A DNA stretch of 64,000 nucleotides from Oscillospiraceae bacterium (GTDB lineage Bacteria; Bacillota; Clostridia; Oscillospirales; Acutalibacteraceae). Below the pieces are notes generated by a model, which saw only the letters and a list, made by a program, of their open reading frames with translations, was not told the DNA's origin and made no database searches. The position numbers and the translations under genes are program-made. The stretch lies in NCBI GenBank assembly GCA_015066015.1, contig SVPE01000001.1:62001-126000 (forward strand), read 5' to 3'. Positions 6,032 through 61,301 of the stretch are shown piece after piece (position 1 is the first letter of the stretch; each line of letters opens with the position of its first letter).

Positions 6032-6046
6032 ATCTACAGAAATAAT

Positions 6047-6163
6047 CTTCAGGGCGAGGTGAAATTCCTCACCGGCGGTAATGGGCGTAAGCCTTAGCCC
6101 GCGAGCAGCTGCAGATCCGGTGCGATCCCGGAGCCGACGGTACAGTCCGGATGAAAGAAGAAT
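6047..6163 (+). ncRNA. FMN riboswitch (RFN element)
   Basis: The conserved RFN blocks are all present in order: AGGGCGAGGTGAAATTCC, TCACCGGCGGTAATGGGC, AGCCCGCGAGC, GATCCGGTG, GATCCCGGAGCCGACGG and ACAGTCCGGATGAAAGAAGA. It binds FMN and controls the downstream riboflavin transporter. The strong hairpin with T-tract at 6181-6214 is the likely terminator expression platform, so FMN is expected to cause premature termination. Confidence 0.97.
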
Positions 6164-6180
6164 ACATAATTTGTATTTAC

Positions 6181-12187: not shown

Positions 12188-12230
12188 TTTTGTAATTCAC
12201 AATGCACAATTCACAATTGCGGGCAAGTTT

Positions 12231-12357
12231 TTTGAATGCAGAATTGCGGTTGCGGGTGGGTTAATGCTCTGCTGAAAGCGAAACTCCGCGAAGTTGGTTT
12301 TGTGGCGGAGGTTAAAATGTTGATTATAATTCTGCCGAGGCGGATAGCCGAGGCATA
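12231..12357 (+). repeat. dispersed repeat module A, copy 1 (with GCCGAGGCGGATAGCC tail)
   Basis: Begins TTTGAATGCAGAATTGCGGT, then T-G-C-G-G-G, GTTAATGCTCTGCTGAAAGC, ACTCCGCGAAGTTGGTTTTG and a tail ATTCTGCCGAGGCGGATAGC. The same order recurs at 14778, 33302, 34098, 37646, 37966 and 56234, always between genes. Confidence 0.8.
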
Positions 12358-14745: not shown

Positions 14746-14777
14746 TTTAAAGCAGTCAGCAGACAGTAACGGTGGCC

Positions 14778-14877
14778 TTTGAATGCAGAATTGCGGTCGG
14801 GGGGGAGTTAATGCTTTGCTGAAAGTGAGTCTTAGCGGAGTTGGTTTTGAGATATAGACAAATCGTTGATTATAAAT
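14778..14877 (+). repeat. dispersed repeat module A, copy 2
   Basis: TTTGAATGCAGAATTGCGGT followed by GTTAATGCTTTGCTGAAAG, the TAGCGGAGTTGGTTTTGAG segment and GTTGATTATAA. The order is the same as at 12231 and 37646. Confidence 0.8.
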
Positions 14878-14914
14878 GTCGGGGTACGGGTAACCGTTAC
14901 TCCGGCTTTTTTTG
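14878..14914 (+). terminator. intrinsic terminator embedded in the repeat block
   Basis: Hairpin formed by GTCGGGGTA-CGG and CCG-TTACTCCGGC with loop GTAA, followed by TTTTTTT. The same hairpin recurs at 37747 after mutS2, so it travels with the repeat. Confidence 0.75.
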
Positions 14915-14965: not shown

Positions 14966-15085
14966 GCGGGGAGGCGCTTTGGCTTTCCTTTCGGGAAAGC
15001 CAAAGGCACACAGAAAAACCGCTTCCGTGGTCGGGGAAGCGGTTTTTCTGTGTGTGACGCGCCTGCGGCGCGTCCGCCTCCCCGC
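14966..15085. repeat. cloverleaf nested palindrome, copy 1
   Basis: Closing stem GCGGGGAGGCG / CGCCTCCCCGC encloses three arms. Arm 1 is CTTTGGCTTTCC/GGAAAGCCAAAG. Arm 2 is an 18-20 bp stem around AAAAACCGCTTCC/GGAAGCGGTTTTT. Arm 3 is GACGCGCC-TGC-GGCGCGTC. Copies with the same plan lie at 33455, 37840 and 56361; variants at 18959, 28873, 41162 and 59146. The remainder of the spacer to 15316 is AT-rich with no gene seen. Confidence 0.9.
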
Positions 15086-18933: not shown

Positions 18934-18958
18934 CCCCGCTTTAAGGGGCGGCGGTCCT

Positions 18959-19081
18959 GCGGACAGGCCCGCCGGCTTCCTGCGGGAAGCCGGCGGCACA
19001 GACAAGAAAAAAACCGGTTTCGTGAAGGTGAAACCGGTTTTTTCTTGTCTGTGACAATGCATGCGCATTGTGCCTGTCCGC
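18959..19081. repeat. cloverleaf nested palindrome, divergent copy with rewritten stems
   Basis: Closing stem GCGGACAGGC / GCCTGTCCGC. Arm 1 is CCGCCGGCTTCC/GGGAAGCCGGCGG. Arm 2 is CACAGACAAGAAAAAAACCG with its full complement. Arm 3 is ACAATGCATGCGCATTGT. The architecture matches copy 1 but almost every stem has different, compensated bases. A small hairpin CCCC-gcttta-GGGG lies just before it at 18934. Confidence 0.85.
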
Positions 19082-19098
19082 ATAGTCGGGTATTTCTT

Positions 19099-23902: not shown

Positions 23903-24694
23903 TTGAAACGAAATGCAATAATACTACATCACGATCTGTATGACGATCTTGCAATGCTCAGCCCCACCGAAAGGGGTGACCTGATATGGGCGGTGTATCA
24001 GTACGATATTTTCGGCACGGTGCCCTCCTTCAGCGACAGAGCACTGACCTGCATATTCAATCAGATGAAGCGTTTCCTTGATGCCAATCACAGAAACTAT
24101 GAGCAGACCTGCAAGGCAAGGTCTGAAAATGCAAAAAAGCGATGGAGCAAGGCGAAAAAGGAGGATGAGATACAAAACGATGCATTTGCAGACAATACTA
24201 ATACTAATACGAACACTAATACTAATATGAATACTAAATCCAATACTAATACTATTACTATTACTAATTCTGATACCAATATTAATACTATGTCCGAAAC
24301 CGATAACAATGCCGATGTCTGTGCCGCCGATGAAAAGACGGGGGAAGGTGCAGCTGCGGCACAGACCTTTTGTGATGAAACACACACAAAGAAAAACGGA
24401 TACGGTGAATTTCATAATGTTTTTCTTTCCGCGGAGGAATTCGGCAAGCTTTCCCGCATGCTGCCCGATGTTATGCGCAGTATAAACTCCATGTCAGCAT
24501 ATATGAAGGCGACGGGTAAAACCTACGCTGACCATTATGCCCAGCTTATGAACTGGAGGCTTTTCCCTTATTCCGACGGCAAGGCTGCAGAAACTAAAAA
24601 AATGCCGGGAGAAAGAAGAGAGCCCACCTTTGACGTAAGCGAATTTACCAAAAAAGCGGTGGGCATAAAATATGTGCCGCCAAAGGAGGACTGA
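23903..24694 (+). CDS. phage-type replication organiser-like protein (DUF6291-like) with Asn/Thr linker
   Basis: 263 residues from a TTG at 23903, positioned 8 bases after AAAGGAG; the upstream extension has no ribosome site. The N-terminal domain (about 90 residues, A-I-I-L-H-H-D-L-Y-D-D-L-A...TERGDLIWAVYQYD) resembles the DUF6291 domain of phage replication proteins. The linker is an almost pure Asn-Thr run encoded by an (AATACT)-type repeat. The C-terminus (Y-G-E-F-H-N-V-F-L-S...Y-A-D-H-Y-A-Q-L-M-N-W) matches the tail of DnaD-like phage replisome organisers. No other phage gene is nearby, so it is either a domesticated gene or a prophage relic. Confidence 0.7.
   Translation: MKRNAIILHHDLYDDLAMLSPTERGDLIWAVYQYDIFGTVPSFSDRALTCIFNQMKRFLDANHRNYEQTCKARSENAKKRWSKAKKEDEIQNDAFADNTNTNTNTNTNMNTKSNTNTITITNSDTNINTMSETDNNADVCAADEKTGEGAAAAQTFCDETHTKKNGYGEFHNVFLSAEEFGKLSRMLPDVMRSINSMSAYMKATGKTYADHYAQLMNWRLFPYSDGKAAETKKMPGERREPTFDVSEFTKKAVGIKYVPPKED
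24191..24296 (+). repeat. degenerate hexanucleotide microsatellite (AATACT)n inside a gene
   Basis: Runs of AATACTAATACTAATACG and variants (AACACT, AATATG, ATTACT) encode the Asn-Thr/Ile-Thr linker. A repeat in multiples of three can change linker length without breaking the frame. Confidence 0.85.
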
Positions 24695-28728: not shown

Positions 28729-28770
28729 GTCACAATTCAGTTTTTTCACAACAACTGAATACTAAGACAA

Positions 28771-28848
28771 AGGGGCAGCTGCGCTACGCGCAGCTGCTTT
28801 CAGCTTGTCGGAAATGCTTTTTCCGGCAAGCTGCTTTTTCTTTCCCCT
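28771..28848. repeat. two-arm nested palindrome upstream of the cloverleaf variant
   Basis: AGGGG/CCCCT closing bases enclose GCAGCTGCGC-TAC-GCGCAGCTGC and CAGCTTGtCGGAAA/TTTCCGgCAAGCTG. This is a smaller relative of the cloverleaf elements. Confidence 0.7.
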
Positions 28849-28872
28849 CACTTACGGGTAAAGGCAGCTTTA

Positions 28873-28983
28873 CGGGGAGGCCCTTTGACTTTCTGCCGAA
28901 AGTCAAAGGCGCAGCGAAAATCCGCTTCCCGCTGATACGAAGCGGATTTTCGCTGCGGCAACGCGGAGCGTTGCGCCTCCCCG
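28873..28983. repeat. cloverleaf nested palindrome, variant
   Basis: Closing stem CGGGGAGGC/GCCTCCCCG. Arm 1 is CTTTGACTTTC/GAAAGTCAAAG. Arm 2 is GCAGCGAAAATCCGCTTC/GAAGCGGATTTTCGCTGC. Arm 3 is GCAACGC-GGA-GCGTTGC. Compared with copy 1, all three arms differ yet remain paired. Confidence 0.88.
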
Positions 28984-33301: not shown

Positions 33302-33425
33302 GAAATGCAGAGTGCAGAATGCAGAGTGCAGAATGCAGAGTTGCGGTCGCGGGCGAGTTAATGCTCTGCCGAAAGTGAGTGACCGCGGAGTGAGTTTATA
33401 GTTGACGGTTAATAGGTTGATTGTA
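33302..33425 (+). repeat. dispersed repeat module A, copy 3, with extended GCAGAATGCAGAGT tandem
   Basis: Opens with tandem GCAGAGTGCAGAAT units, then TTGCGGTCGCGGGCGAGTTA, ATGCTCTGCCGAAAGTGAGT and GTTGATTGTAAAATGCTGAG. Confidence 0.8.
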
Positions 33426-33454
33426 AAATGCTGAGTTTGGGGTGAAGGGAAGAT

Positions 33455-33574
33455 GCGGGGAGGCGCTTTGGCTTTCTTTTTGGGAAAGCCAAAGGCACAA
33501 AGAAAAACCGCTTCCGTTATCGGGGAAGCAGTTTTTCTCTGTGAGACGCGCCTGCGGCGCGTCCGCCTCCCCGC
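33455..33574. repeat. cloverleaf nested palindrome, copy 4
   Basis: Same closing stem and arms as at 14966. Arm 2 has two mismatches (CACAAAG against CTCTGTG and CCGC against GCAG), so this copy is slightly decayed. Confidence 0.9.
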
Positions 33575-33584
33575 CAGTCGGCGA

Positions 33585-33648
33585 AATTAACAATTCACAA
33601 TTGCCGAGGCGGATAGCCGAGGCATATAATCGCCTATGGCGATAAAAA
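33585..33648 (+). repeat. tail module (AACAATTCACAATTGC plus GCCGAGGCGGATAGCC)
   Basis: The same GCCGAGGCGGATAGCCGAGG string ends module A at 12335. A small hairpin CGCC-tat-GGCG follows. Confidence 0.6.
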
Positions 33649-34086: not shown

Positions 34087-34097
34087 AATGCCTGCGA

Positions 34098-34171
34098 TTT
34101 TGAATGCAGAATTGCGGTCGCGGACAGGTTAACGCTCTTCTGAAAGCGTTACTCCGCAGAGTCGGTTTCAC
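34098..34171 (+). repeat. dispersed repeat module A, copy 4 (short)
   Basis: TTTTGAATGCAGAATTGCGG, TCGCGGACAGGTTAACGCTC and ACTCCGCAGAGTCGGTTTC. Confidence 0.8.
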
Positions 34172-37608: not shown

Positions 37609-37645
37609 CGACATATAAGTGCATAGTGCGGAAACTACAATAGCC

Positions 37646-37746
37646 TTTTGAATGCAGAATTGCGGTCGCGGTCAGGTTAACGCTCCGGTGAAAGCGGTCT
37701 TTGCGGCACTGTTTTTGAGATAGAGGCAAACCGGTTGATTATAAAA
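37646..37746 (+). repeat. dispersed repeat module A, copy 5
   Basis: TTTTGAATGCAGAATTGCGG, TCGCGGTCAGGTTAACGCTC and GTTGATTATAAAAGTCGGGG, nearly parallel to copy 2. Confidence 0.8.
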
Positions 37747-37839: not shown

Positions 37840-37958
37840 GCGGGGAGGCGCTTTGGCTTTCCCTCAGGCAAGCCAAAGGCACACAGAAAAACAGCTTCCG
37901 TTATCGGGGAAGCGGTTTTTCTGTGTGTGACGCGCCTGCGGCGCGTCCGCCTCCCCGC
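37840..37958. repeat. cloverleaf nested palindrome, copy 5
   Basis: Closing stem GCGGGGAGGCG/CGCCTCCCCGC and the same three arms as copy 1, with one mismatch each in arms 1 and 2. Confidence 0.9.
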
Positions 37959-37965
37959 TACGGCG

Positions 37966-38090
37966 TAATTCACAATTGCGGTCGCGGGTGAGTTAACGCT
38001 TTGCTGAAGGCGAGACTGAGCAGAGTTGGTTTTGAGTTAGAGGTTAAAATGTTGATTACAATTCTGCCGAGGCGGATAGCTGACACTAGC
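37966..38090 (+). repeat. dispersed repeat module A, copy 6 (AATTCACAATTGCGGTCGCGGG entry)
   Basis: Starts AATTCACAATTGCGG, then GTTAACGCTTTGCTGAAGGC, AGCAGAGTTGGTTTTGAG and ATTCTGCCGAGGCGGATAGC. Confidence 0.75.
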
Positions 38091-41130: not shown

Positions 41131-41285
41131 CTGAGCCCCGCGGCTACGCCGCGGGGCAATTGCGCGGGGCGGTCAATGCCGCCGCAGGCGGCATTGCATA
41201 TCGGGAGCACAGCTCCCGATATGGCGCAGCGGAGCGTAGCTCCGCTGCGCGCCTCCCCGCGCCCTGCAATGCGCCCGGTGCATTG
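41131..41285. repeat. five-hairpin palindrome cluster containing a cloverleaf-like core (41162-41262)
   Basis: Hairpin GCCCCGCGGC-TAC-GCCGCGGGGC is followed by the core: closing stem GCGCGGGG/CCCCGCGC around AATGCCGCC-GCA-GGCGGCATT, ATATCGGGAGC-ACA-GCTCCCGATAT and GCGCAGCGGAGC-GTA-GCTCCGCTGCGC. GCAATGC/GCATTGC follows. The plan matches the cloverleaf family but the arms share no primary sequence with copy 1. Confidence 0.85.
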
Positions 41286-55192: not shown

Positions 55193-56005
55193 ATGAGTCA
55201 GATTTTAGTTCCCGTAATTATCGTTGCGGCTATCGGTCTTATTGCAGGTCTCGGACTTGCCTTTGCCTCTGCCGTTTTTGCAGTTCCCGTTGACGAAAAG
55301 GAAGAAAAGGTAAGAGAATGCCTCCCCGGTGCAAACTGCGGTGCCTGCGGCTATACAGGCTGTGACGGTTATGCAGGTGCTCTTGCAAAGGGCGAAACGG
55401 AGGATTGCAGTCTCTGCATTCCCGGCGGTAACGACACTGCCAAGGCTATTGCTTCCATAATGGGTCTTGAGGCAGGGGAGATTGTCCCTTCCGTTGCTGC
55501 CGTTATGTGTCAGGGCAACTGCCACAATGTTGAAGAAAAGCTCGAATACAGCGGTGTACGTTCGTGTAAAATTGCAACACAGCTTTTCGGCGGTCCCAAA
55601 AACTGCGTTCACGGTTGTATCGGCTTCGGCGACTGCGTTGAGGTCTGCCCCTATGATGCAATTTTCATCTGTGACGGCGTTGCAAGAATCAATCCCGACA
55701 GATGCCGTGCCTGTAAGATGTGCATCAAGACCTGTCCCAGAGGTCTTATAGAGCTCTTCCCTCTCGATACCACAAAGGCTGCCGTTCTTTGTAAAAACCA
55801 CGACAAGGGCGCACAGACAAGAAAACAGTGTAAGGCCGGCTGCATCGGCTGTATGAAGTGTATGAAGGCTTGTCCTGCTGAAGCAGTAAAGGTTGAAAAC
55901 TTCTGCGCAAGTGTTGATTATGACAAGTGCATCGGCTGCGGTAAGTGTCACGAGGTATGTCCCGTAGGCTGTATTGACCTTTACACCGTAAAGAAGCATT
56001 TTTGA
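55193..56005 (+). CDS. rnfB: Rnf electron transport complex subunit B (ferredoxin-type)
   Basis: 270 residues behind AAGGAGGTAAGGTA. An N-terminal membrane helix is followed by a four-Cys cluster domain (C-L-P-G-A-N-C-G-A-C-G-Y-T-G-C). Ferredoxin-like [4Fe-4S] motifs follow: CVEVCP/CRACKMCIKTCP and CIGCMKCMKACP/CIGCGKCHEVCP. RnfB takes electrons from reduced ferredoxin and passes them into the complex. It is the last gene of rnfCDGEAB; a terminator follows at 56045. Confidence 0.97.
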   Translation: MSQILVPVIIVAAIGLIAGLGLAFASAVFAVPVDEKEEKVRECLPGANCGACGYTGCDGYAGALAKGETEDCSLCIPGGNDTAKAIASIMGLEAGEIVPSVAAVMCQGNCHNVEEKLEYSGVRSCKIATQLFGGPKNCVHGCIGFGDCVEVCPYDAIFICDGVARINPDRCRACKMCIKTCPRGLIELFPLDTTKAAVLCKNHDKGAQTRKQCKAGCIGCMKCMKACPAEAVKVENFCASVDYDKCIGCGKCHEVCPVGCIDLYTVKKHF

Positions 56006-56081: not shown

Positions 56082-56233
56082 GTAATGTGCAGGGTGCGGA
56101 AGGTAAAAAACTCAAAATGGGCGATTTAAGGCACTTATTGTGTTTTACGGTGTTGCTACATTGAAAAACGGTTAAATGCGGTAAAAATGCCCGAAACGGA
56201 AGAAAGAGGATGATGTGCAGTTGACAATGCCTT

Positions 56234-56335
56234 GTTGAATGCAGAATTGCGGTCGCGGATGGATTAACGCTCCGGTGAAAGTGTGTCTCCGCGGAGCCGG
56301 ATTTGTGGTGGCGGTTAATGGGTTGATTATAAAAT
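56234..56335 (+). repeat. dispersed repeat module A, copy 7
   Basis: TTGAATGCAGAATTGCGGTC, GGATTAACGCTCCGGTGAAA, TCCGCGGAGCCGGATTTG and GTTGATTATAAAATGCTGAG, parallel to the copy at 33302. Confidence 0.8.
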
Positions 56336-56360
56336 GCTGAGTGTGGGGTGAAGGGAAGAT

Positions 56361-56481
56361 GCGGGGAGGCGCTTTGGCTTTCCTTTTGAGGAAAGCCAAA
56401 GGCACAGAGAAAAACCGCTTCCGTTAGCGAGGAAGCGGTTTTTCTCTGTGTGACGCGCCTGCGGCGCGTCCGCCTCCCCGC
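56361..56481. repeat. cloverleaf nested palindrome, copy 6 (best-preserved)
   Basis: Closing stem GCGGGGAGGCG/CGCCTCCCCGC. Arm 1 is CTTTGGCTTTCC/GGAAAGCCAAAG. Arm 2 is CACAGAGAAAAACCGCTTCC with its perfect 20-bp complement. Arm 3 is GACGCGCC-TGC-GGCGCGTC. A partial module (AATTCACAATTGCGGTCGCG) follows at 56500, then a GCCGCC-gctt-cGGCGGC hairpin near 56611. No gene is seen in 56482-56668. Confidence 0.92.
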
Positions 56482-56668: not shown

Positions 56669-56716
56669 CAAAAAAAGCAGATATTTTCAAGTAAGTAGCT
56701 ACTGAAAATATCTGCG
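56669..56716 (-). terminator. intrinsic terminator of the lysozyme gene
   Basis: Minus strand GCAGATATTTTCA-gtagctacttact-TGAAAATATCTGC followed by TTTTTTTG, 13-bp perfect stem. Confidence 0.9.
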
Positions 56717-58594: not shown

Positions 58595-59145
58595 GTTTCG
58601 CCCTGTTTTTGGGGCTTTTTTCGAGGTTTTTAAATTTTTATATTAAAGAAAATCCGTGTTTTTTTTATGAAAGGTTCACAAAATTTTTAAAATGCCACAT
58701 CTGAAACCTTGGGCATTGTTACAAAGTTGCTCAAAAATGCAAAAAAGTGAAAATTTGTGAAAAAATACGACGGTATTTTTTAGTGCATACTGCCCAAATT
58801 GACAGGGGTTCAAATATACAAATTGAACAAATACATTCTAAAACAGAATTAAACTGCTATTATATAATGCGAAAACGGAAAAATATAATCAATAAAACAT
58901 CGTGGTAAATTTGCACAAAAGCTCTGACAGATTTTTCGGCTTAGGATAAAAAAACGGGTGAAAATCAACAACATGTAGTGCAAAAGGAGTAATTTTTACA
59001 CTACATGAGCAGTTTATCGACATTTGTTGATAAAATCATTTTTGTAAGGGTAAGAAAAAATGTCAGAATTACATTAAAATATCTTTAAGGAAAATTTTCC
59101 GTAAGTCTGTGTTTTTCAGTAGTATATGAGTTGGGGAAAAGGTGC
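58595..59145. other. AT-rich intergenic stretch, no gene seen
   Basis: The short open frames here lack ribosome sites and protein-like composition. The only structure I see is the inverted repeat at 58972-59007. Confidence 0.6.
58972..59007. repeat. 9-bp inverted repeat, operator candidate
   Basis: CATGTAGTG (58972-58980) and CACTACATG (58999-59007) with an 18-base spacer in AT-rich DNA. No promoter or gene is assigned to it. Confidence 0.5.
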
Positions 59146-59262
59146 GGGGAGGCTCTTTTGCTTCCCTTCTGAGGAAAGCAAAATCCACAGAGAAAATCCG
59201 CTTCCGGGAAAGGGGAAGCGGATTTTCTCTGTGGGAACGGGCGAAGCCCGTTCGGCCTCCCC
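59146..59262. repeat. cloverleaf nested palindrome, variant near proS
   Basis: Closing stem GGGGAGGC/GCCTCCCC. Arm 1 is TTTTGCTT/AAGCAAAA. Arm 2 is CACAGAGAAAATCCGCTTCC with its complement. Arm 3 is GAACGGGC-GAA-GCCCGTTC. Arms 1 and 3 differ from copy 1 with compensating changes. Inverted module A pieces (GCTCTGCATTCTGCAT) follow to 59328. Confidence 0.9.
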
Positions 59263-59332
59263 GGCTAATGTGGATTCACCATTCTGTATTCAAAAGGCGA
59301 CCACAACTCTGCGCTCTGCATTCTGCATAAAA

Positions 59333-59557
59333 AAGGGGCTGTTGGATTAAGATGCAGAAGGCGTTTTCTTCGCCCCGAAGGCGTACAGTGGTACTCCGAG
59401 AGGGCGAAAAAACGTCTGAAAAAGCAAAATTATGTTTTATGCAACACTTAAAAGTTACTTTCAATAGAATTAAAGCAGATATTTTCAGTAGATTTACTAC
59501 TTCAAATACCTGCTTTTTGCATTGCTTTTTGGTCTGCGCTTAATGCAACAACCCCTT
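59333..59557. mobile_element. 225-bp MITE-like element with terminal inverted repeats
   Basis: The left end AAGGGGCTGTTGGATTAAG and the right end (reversed) AAGGGGTTGTTGCATTAAG match at 17 of 19 positions; similarity continues into GCAGA. Inside, GCGTTTTCTTCGCCC and GGGCGAAAAAACG form a second inverted pair around GTAC-agtg-GTAC. There is no transposase gene. The ends resemble those of IS families that start GGGGCTGTTGCA. The right end lies 6 bases from the proS stop. Confidence 0.75.
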
Positions 59558-61070: not shown

Positions 61071-61301
61071 AAATGCAAAATGCAAAATGCAAAATGCAAA
61101 ATTGTGGTCGCGGGATAACAAGTTTAATAATAAACCTTTATCCCGCGAATGAGCGTTTTTAATCAAAAGTAAATATATATTTATAATTGCCAAACAATGC
61201 AGCCTGGCGGAATAAAGCTTATATCCGATACAAAAGCTGAACGGATATAATCGGAGCGAAGCGACCCTTCATTCTGCACTTTGCATTTTGCACTCTGCAT
61301 T
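61071..61301. repeat. inverted module-A pair enclosing hairpins, between ileS and proS
   Basis: AATGCAAAATGCAAAATGCA plus TTGTGGTCGCGGG at the left, and the reversed TGCACTTTGCATTTTGCAC at the right. Between them GCGGGATAA/TTATCCCGC and TTATATCCG/CGGATATAA form hairpins. AGGGC-AAC-GCCCT follows near the ileS stop. Confidence 0.7.

Follow-up and report, generated by a model that had tools for sequence, protein, structure and literature searches.

A dispersed family of cloverleaf palindromes between the genes of an Oscillospiraceae bacterium

The sequence at positions 56361-56481 raises the question of what kind of element recurs between genes, folds as a four-way junction and is so densely repeated along one contig. 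The initial annotation had described it as a dispersed cloverleaf palindrome which differs from ordinary REP sequences and could be matched to no named family. "The window" denotes the whole stretch of 64,000 nucleotides that was analysed (G000:C33:62001-126000), where G000 is the host genome (2,383,639 bp, i.e. 2.38 Mb, in 42 contigs); throughout the work each species was represented by one draft genome.

Elements of the window and of the host genome

All nine places named in the initial annotation were read and folded. The seven proposed as copies of a recurrent four-way element (14966, 18958, 28873, 33455, 37840, 56361 and 59145, after correction of two coordinates by 1 base) indeed form near-perfect four-way junctions. 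Each is 111-125 bp long and consists of a closing stem and three abutting hairpins of approximately 12, 21 and 8 bp; the junction leaves 0-2 bases unpaired. The place at 41162, regarded as a probable copy, holds an eighth four-way structure, whose arms are unrelated and whose closing stem contains one mismatch. The supposed smaller relative at 28771 may be retained as a weak three-way relative; with a closing helix of 4 bp, it does not form the four-way fold. The structures are as follows:

14966..15085, + strand: cloverleaf between convergent genes
18958..19082, + strand: cloverleaf with a diverged closing stem, two convergent stop codons lying 24 and 16 bp away
28769..28850, no strand assigned: smaller hairpin structure, three-way and thus no cloverleaf, closed by a helix of 4 bp
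28873..28983, + strand: cloverleaf between convergent genes
33455..33574, + strand: cloverleaf between tandem genes
37840..37958, + strand: cloverleaf between tandem genes
41162..41260, no strand assigned: variant, also four-way, whose arms are unrelated and whose closing stem has a single mismatch (z -9.5)
56361..56481, + strand: reference cloverleaf, closing stem GCGGGGAGGC.../...GCCTCCCCGC
56402..56451, no strand assigned: middle arm of the reference copy, a hairpin with an A tract before and a T tract after its G+C stem, terminator-like on both strands
59145..59263, + strand: cloverleaf between tandem genes of the - strand

The arms of the reference copy are 13, 21 and 8 bp long and its junction contains no unpaired bases; the fold has z scores of -14.8 (RNA) and -15.1 (DNA), and none of 200 shuffled sequences was equally stable. 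According to a simple gene caller made for this analysis, the window copies fall between genes, as had been proposed; the variant at 41162 overlaps a mechanically defined 116-aa ORF which is absent from the called genes. A strict hairpin scan recovered only five of the eight window places, and fold scanning was used instead.

The exact closing-stem pattern, GGGAGGC-N82..112-GCCTCCC, has 43 matches in the host genome. All 31 of those located on the six contigs examined closely (732,554 of 2,383,639 bp) fold as four-way junctions, and since the pattern asks for no arms, the arms are not a by-product of the selection. Looser patterns raised the number of well-formed elements in the examined part of the genome to 48. 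A fold scan that used no sequence information found 40 four-way junctions with at least 80% pairing in the same 732,554 bp, while contig C33 (256.8 kb), Markov-shuffled once, produced six, all 72-75% paired and none reaching 80%, and in 390,311 bp from two congeners the scan yielded two.

Sequence conservation ends sharply at the closing stem in the 39 older copies; the nine young copies, which were set aside, have common flanking DNA beyond it. The closing stem, of approximately 7-12 bp, resembles the terminal inverted repeats of a MITE. Inspection of the 48 copies, by eye only, revealed no target site duplication.

Other repeats and features were noted in the window. A second dispersed repeat of approximately 117 nt, running from AATGCAGAATTGCGGTCGCGG to TTGATTATAA, often adjoins a young cloverleaf and also occurs without one:

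12225-12351, 14772-14898, 33322-33448, 34093-34168, 37641-37716, 37957-38083 and 56228-56354: second dispersed repeat

A 25-nt repeat, TGCCGAGGCGGATAGCCGAGGCATA, is present at 12333-12357, 33602-33626 and 38065-38089 (identical at two of these positions), and intergenic short tandem stretches of the AATGCAGAGTGCAG/AATGCAAAATGC type lie at 33304-33344, 61072-61102 and 61261-61301. Two AAAGCAGATATTTTCA hairpins with 76% identity (56674-56715 and 59472-59513) are each placed a few hundred bases past a cloverleaf, and a tandem AATACTAATACT-type repeat occurs within an ORF stretch at 24193-24297. Elsewhere in the host genome, two smaller and nearly identical cloverleaves with another closing stem lie 341 bp apart (G000:C33:189720-189806 and 190061-190147), and rows of short hairpins with TTCATT- or GAAATA-like spacers flank G000:C5:151496-151616 and G000:C25:8859-8951.

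The elements are intergenic and mostly situated at gene 3' ends. At 44 places on the six contigs (35 tabulated elements and nine manual additions, which include variants), the gap is tandem in 22 cases, convergent in 18 and divergent in 4, compared with 117, 42 and 54, respectively, among background gaps of at least 150 bp, and at least six copies sit 10-32 bp from a stop codon. The 32 copies of congeners for which both neighbours were called show 17 tandem, 12 convergent and 3 divergent gaps. When orientation is defined by the order of the arms, 21 of 27 tandem copies (16/19 plus 5/8, summed by hand) are oriented with transcription, and 37 of 51 copies (29/38 plus 8/13, also summed by hand) are oriented in line with the sign of the local GC skew; the bias may reflect transcription or replication.

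In the host species the middle arm looks like a bidirectional terminator, as predicted from its tracts. The A/T pairs 64/96 and 65/95 are unchanged in 47 and 46 of 47 copies, respectively, within a helix that otherwise changes, and both the A and the T tract are present in 40 of 44 host copies. In the seven window cloverleaves a G+C stem is followed by a T tract, the usual mark of a predicted intrinsic terminator; each of the seven was called terminator-like, four of them on both strands and the others on one. Such tracts were not seen in the arms of the elements of two congeners, G043 and G008, and therefore termination does not define the class.

The sequence family and the wider cloverleaf class

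Judged by primary sequence, the family appears nearly confined to the host genome. The search of the genome and its relatives proposed in the initial annotation yielded the 43 host copies and no family member in 33 other genomes of the genus, where the only match to the exact closing stem (one, in G018) shows no arms in its letters. A blastn search with the element against 38 relatives gave nothing. Among the 76 loci obtained by pattern scanning of GTDB, in which records close to the host genome are possibly absent, the clear member was L101 (E 1.4e-16), a single copy by pattern located near a contig edge in the MAG Oscillospiraceae bacterium SIG445; four of its eight ORFs match the six host contigs, at 28-51% identity. 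Another GTDB locus, L156, folds as a four-way junction that leaves 8 bases unpaired, and in about a dozen further four-way loci the arms are uneven, imperfect or extensively unpaired (there is 1 unpaired base in L120 and in L107). The 11 loci found by the pattern scan of viral_contigs include no clean cloverleaf.

Two sets of candidates were rejected. The search of 295 genomes of the order with model R1, which was insensitive because of strict filters and the scoring of 12 candidates per genome, gave matches in three genomes besides the host, and these fold as simple terminators. Matches to the family pattern in 22 of 199 other genomes resemble, by their letters alone, chance matches in coding sequence.

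The cloverleaf architecture is, on predicted folds, wider than the family: it occurs with other closing stems and arms in the congeners G043, G008, G004 and others, and in G077, a member of another genus of the same family. G008 contains 17 copies by pattern, with the closing stem GGCGGCCG, all of which fold four-way, and G020 has two copies by pattern, both four-way, one with 10 unpaired bases. In G043, all 21 copies by pattern, with the closing stem GGCGGCTC, are four-way, one of them poorly; in G008 and G043, as in the host, the patterns specified no arms. Four-way folds were also obtained for four elements of G004 and one of G007. G077 carries three exact matches to a third closing stem, of which the two folded are both four-way and are adjoined by another, different cloverleaf. 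Orthologues of the gene at window positions 55193-56002 are followed by other cloverleaves in G004, G018, G003, G039 and G013; in G043 a cloverleaf lies downstream of a different gene. A fold scan of 190,311 bp of G016 found none at the 80% level, and in G002 the gap that matches that of the host copy at 18958 contains only a plain hairpin. Related species thus seem to preserve the shape to a greater degree than the letters.

Arm turnover, covariation and loop inversion

A middle arm may be different in almost every copy and still be paired. In G043 the two outer arms are alike and most copies have another hairpin as their middle arm, and in G004 every arm differs while the base of the stem is common. 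G039 and G013 share a locus (L313 and L316), flanked left and right by orthologous genes, at which the two cloverleaves agree in their outer arms but not in the middle one. Pairing is nevertheless nearly complete: the outer seven pairs of the three arms are paired to 99.7, 98.4 and 99.7% in the host and to 98.6, 100 and 99.3% in G043.

An excess of covariation, which the initial annotation had also proposed to test, was present. In alignment A3 (made with MAFFT, not fitted to structure, and with arm 3 left out) 96.0% of cells are paired vs 82.7% after shuffling and at most 60.4% in slid versions, and 180 cells are changed on both sides vs 42.0 after shuffling. In the R1 structure, RNAalifold left arm 3 unpaired owing to misregistration by MAFFT, and the structure of the other helices was used for pair counts. 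By hand sum, 92 of the 180 both-side cells, which represent sequences and not events, are double transversions, for which there is no G-U path. In 44 host copies, changes in the arms were two-sided in 214 cases vs one-sided in 54; these arm statistics leave out C33 60075, C33 132575, C5 83195 and C38 70287, whose arms are odd or whose orientation is unclear. Pairs other than Watson-Crick make up 2.7, 3.5 and 4.3% in successive thirds of divergence (0.01-0.08, 0.08-0.19 and 0.19-0.36; 16, 15 and 15 of 44 copies, with edge copies in common), which is a slight though significant increase (Spearman 0.30, p 0.046).

Some loops of the arms, moreover, are found in other copies as their reverse complements. 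The numbers of identical, reverse-complement, reversed and complement pairs are 85, 68, 0 and 0 for arm 3 of the host, 11, 10, 0 and 0 for arm 2 of G008, and 13, 14, 0 and 2 for arm 3 of G043. For arm 2 of the host, with 8-nt loops of only two sequences, they are 6, 4, 0 and 0. Inversion is weak in arm 1 of the host (5 reverse-complement vs 25 identical pairs), and inverted loops were found neither in arms 1 and 3 of G008 nor in arm 1 of G043. For three-base loops, a preference for stable loops, whichever strand carries them, could be another source of the inversion. GNA triloops with a closing C-G pair have an unusual stability as DNA. Loops of the GNA or TNC type account for 29 of 34 three-base loops in host elements, 32 of 91 in other intergenic hairpins and 4 of 54 in coding hairpins; the corresponding numbers are 29 of 37 in G008 and only 19 of 43 in G043. 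The 8-base inversions of the middle arm (e.g. C5 148479 vs C5 151496) are not easily explained by such a choice. Recombination between the halves of an arm may be another route to loop inversion at the DNA level.

Multiple compensations and fully inverted loops are given as marks of template switching in PMC8794818. Taken together, the two-sided changes, double transversions and reverse-complement loops favour upkeep at the DNA level, which template switching during replication would predict, over ordinary RNA covariation. Because the double transversions and inverted loops point to DNA, covariation alone is no proof of RNA here.

Possible origins and relation to known systems

Searches of Rfam (release 15) found no match for the elements: at gathering level the window contains only the FMN riboswitch (6041-6166, 118.1 bits), and at E<=1 the seven element-bearing loci gave four matches, all far below gathering scores. 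No bacterial cloverleaf repeat of this kind was recognised from titles and abstracts in open-licence PubMed Central, which is weak evidence of absence. The elements are best filed as REP-like dispersed palindromes with a new architecture. With REP and BIME sequences (PMC2817692) they have in common a dispersed intergenic location, species-specific sequence, many copies and folding as a single strand; the unit of REP is there a single interrupted palindrome, headed by GT(A/G)G and found beside a system of the RAYT (REP-associated tyrosine transposase) type. The elements described here, in contrast, are 75-125 bp long, consist of a closing stem and three arms, and have no GT(A/G)G head at their sharp boundary. 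REP palindromes are about 20-40 nt in length. No cognate RAYT framed by the repeats was found here, the number of Y1_Tnp matches being zero in G008 and a single 98-aa frame in the host.

The elements also resemble integron attC sites, in which the fold of the single-stranded DNA, rather than the sequence, is conserved. An attC site, however, forms a single long hairpin and has invariable core sites, the core being of the GTTRRRY kind, which the closing-stem consensus lacks. The bacterial MITEs Correia, ERIC, RUP, CIR, YPAL and RU-3 are likewise small (100-200 bp), intergenic and stably folding; in the review PMC2229807 they appear as long stem loops or, in the case of CIR, as two arms, and the term cloverleaf is not used. 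Palindromic candidate structured RNAs of the human microbiome have structures on both strands, and 230 of 250 are predicted terminators (PMC8040213); cloverleaf elements could be among them. Dispersed hairpins in intergenic DNA are also reported from organelles (sponge RHE, green algal palindromes).

Several explanations of the elements were weighed. A selected RNA element that terminates transcription in both directions or stabilises mRNA at 3' ends, and whose transcript is under selection to keep the four-way fold by ordinary compensatory substitutions, would account for the placement at gene 3' ends, the orientation of tandem copies with transcription, the near-invariant A/T tracts and the strong covariation. 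We consider it unlikely: a working terminator would stop the RNA inside the middle arm, and such an RNA would consequently not form the closing stem, which is conserved best of all. The scarcity of G-U pairs, the share of double transversions (half of the both-side cells) and the complete change of closing stem and arms between congeners argue in the same direction. If the elements were instead miniatures mobilised by the transposase of a full-length insertion sequence, with the closing stem as its terminal inverted repeat, the many dispersed copies, the sharp inverted ends and the confinement to one species would be expected. This classical-transposon origin appears very improbable, because only eight stem halves lie outside the listed elements on the six contigs (of which two make up a single overlapping end in a known variant and two belong to a small hairpin), and no pair of halves that could frame a transposase gene was seen in these 732,554 of 2,383,639 bp. 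Moreover, no evident transposase was recognised among genes beside clustered copies (first residues judged by eye), no target duplication was visible, and the arms are rewritten as palindromes, which the interior of a transposon does not need.

The elements might also be the substrate of an enzyme that reads structure in single-stranded DNA (an integron-like integrase acting on attC, or an HUH nuclease), with the closing stem and junction recognised in folded form and the arms free to vary. The conservation of the closing stem within a species together with variable arms, clearest in G004 and G043, and the bias of orientation with skew agree with this suggestion, which we regard as quite improbable: Y1_Tnp (HUH) matches are absent from G008 despite its 17 copies, and from G020 and G007, and the single 98-aa frame of the host lies in a 3.2-kb locus, L246, that has no cloverleaf at the cut of the scan. 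Such matches are present in the cloverleaf-bearing genomes G004, G043, G003, G018, G039 and G013, and thus a link between Y1_Tnp and cloverleaves may exist but is not consistent across genomes.

The explanation that we prefer, while rating its chances as evenly balanced, is that these are non-autonomous short repeats of REP type, with a cloverleaf as the unit, maintained by template switching, and with a middle arm that serves in the host species as a bidirectional intrinsic terminator. The single strand would fold as DNA, probably at replication forks, where template switching between the halves of an arm would rewrite it into a perfect palindrome and occasionally invert its loop. Copies would spread by some enzyme or by recombination; a single-stranded stage in this process would fit the orientation bias. 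The middle arm of the host elements would additionally be kept as a terminator. Against this explanation stands the fact that no spreading enzyme was found, nor a target duplication when searched for by eye. The weak increase of non-Watson-Crick pairs with divergence, the lack of loop inversion in several arms and the agreement of orientation with transcription also count against it. A bolder and distinctly doubtful extension would see in the cloverleaves mobile DNA of a new kind, moving as a folded four-way junction, of which an enzyme reads only the species-specific closing stem and junction, so that the arms are free for rewriting by template switching; the copies would then keep a natural record of how hairpins direct the rewriting of DNA.

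It is common to regard covariation as proving a function of the RNA. The dozens of sister copies present in a single genome would make it possible to measure how far replication alone makes and keeps perfect stems. Moreover, since each species seemingly has its own closing stem, the search for the enzyme that reads it becomes practical.
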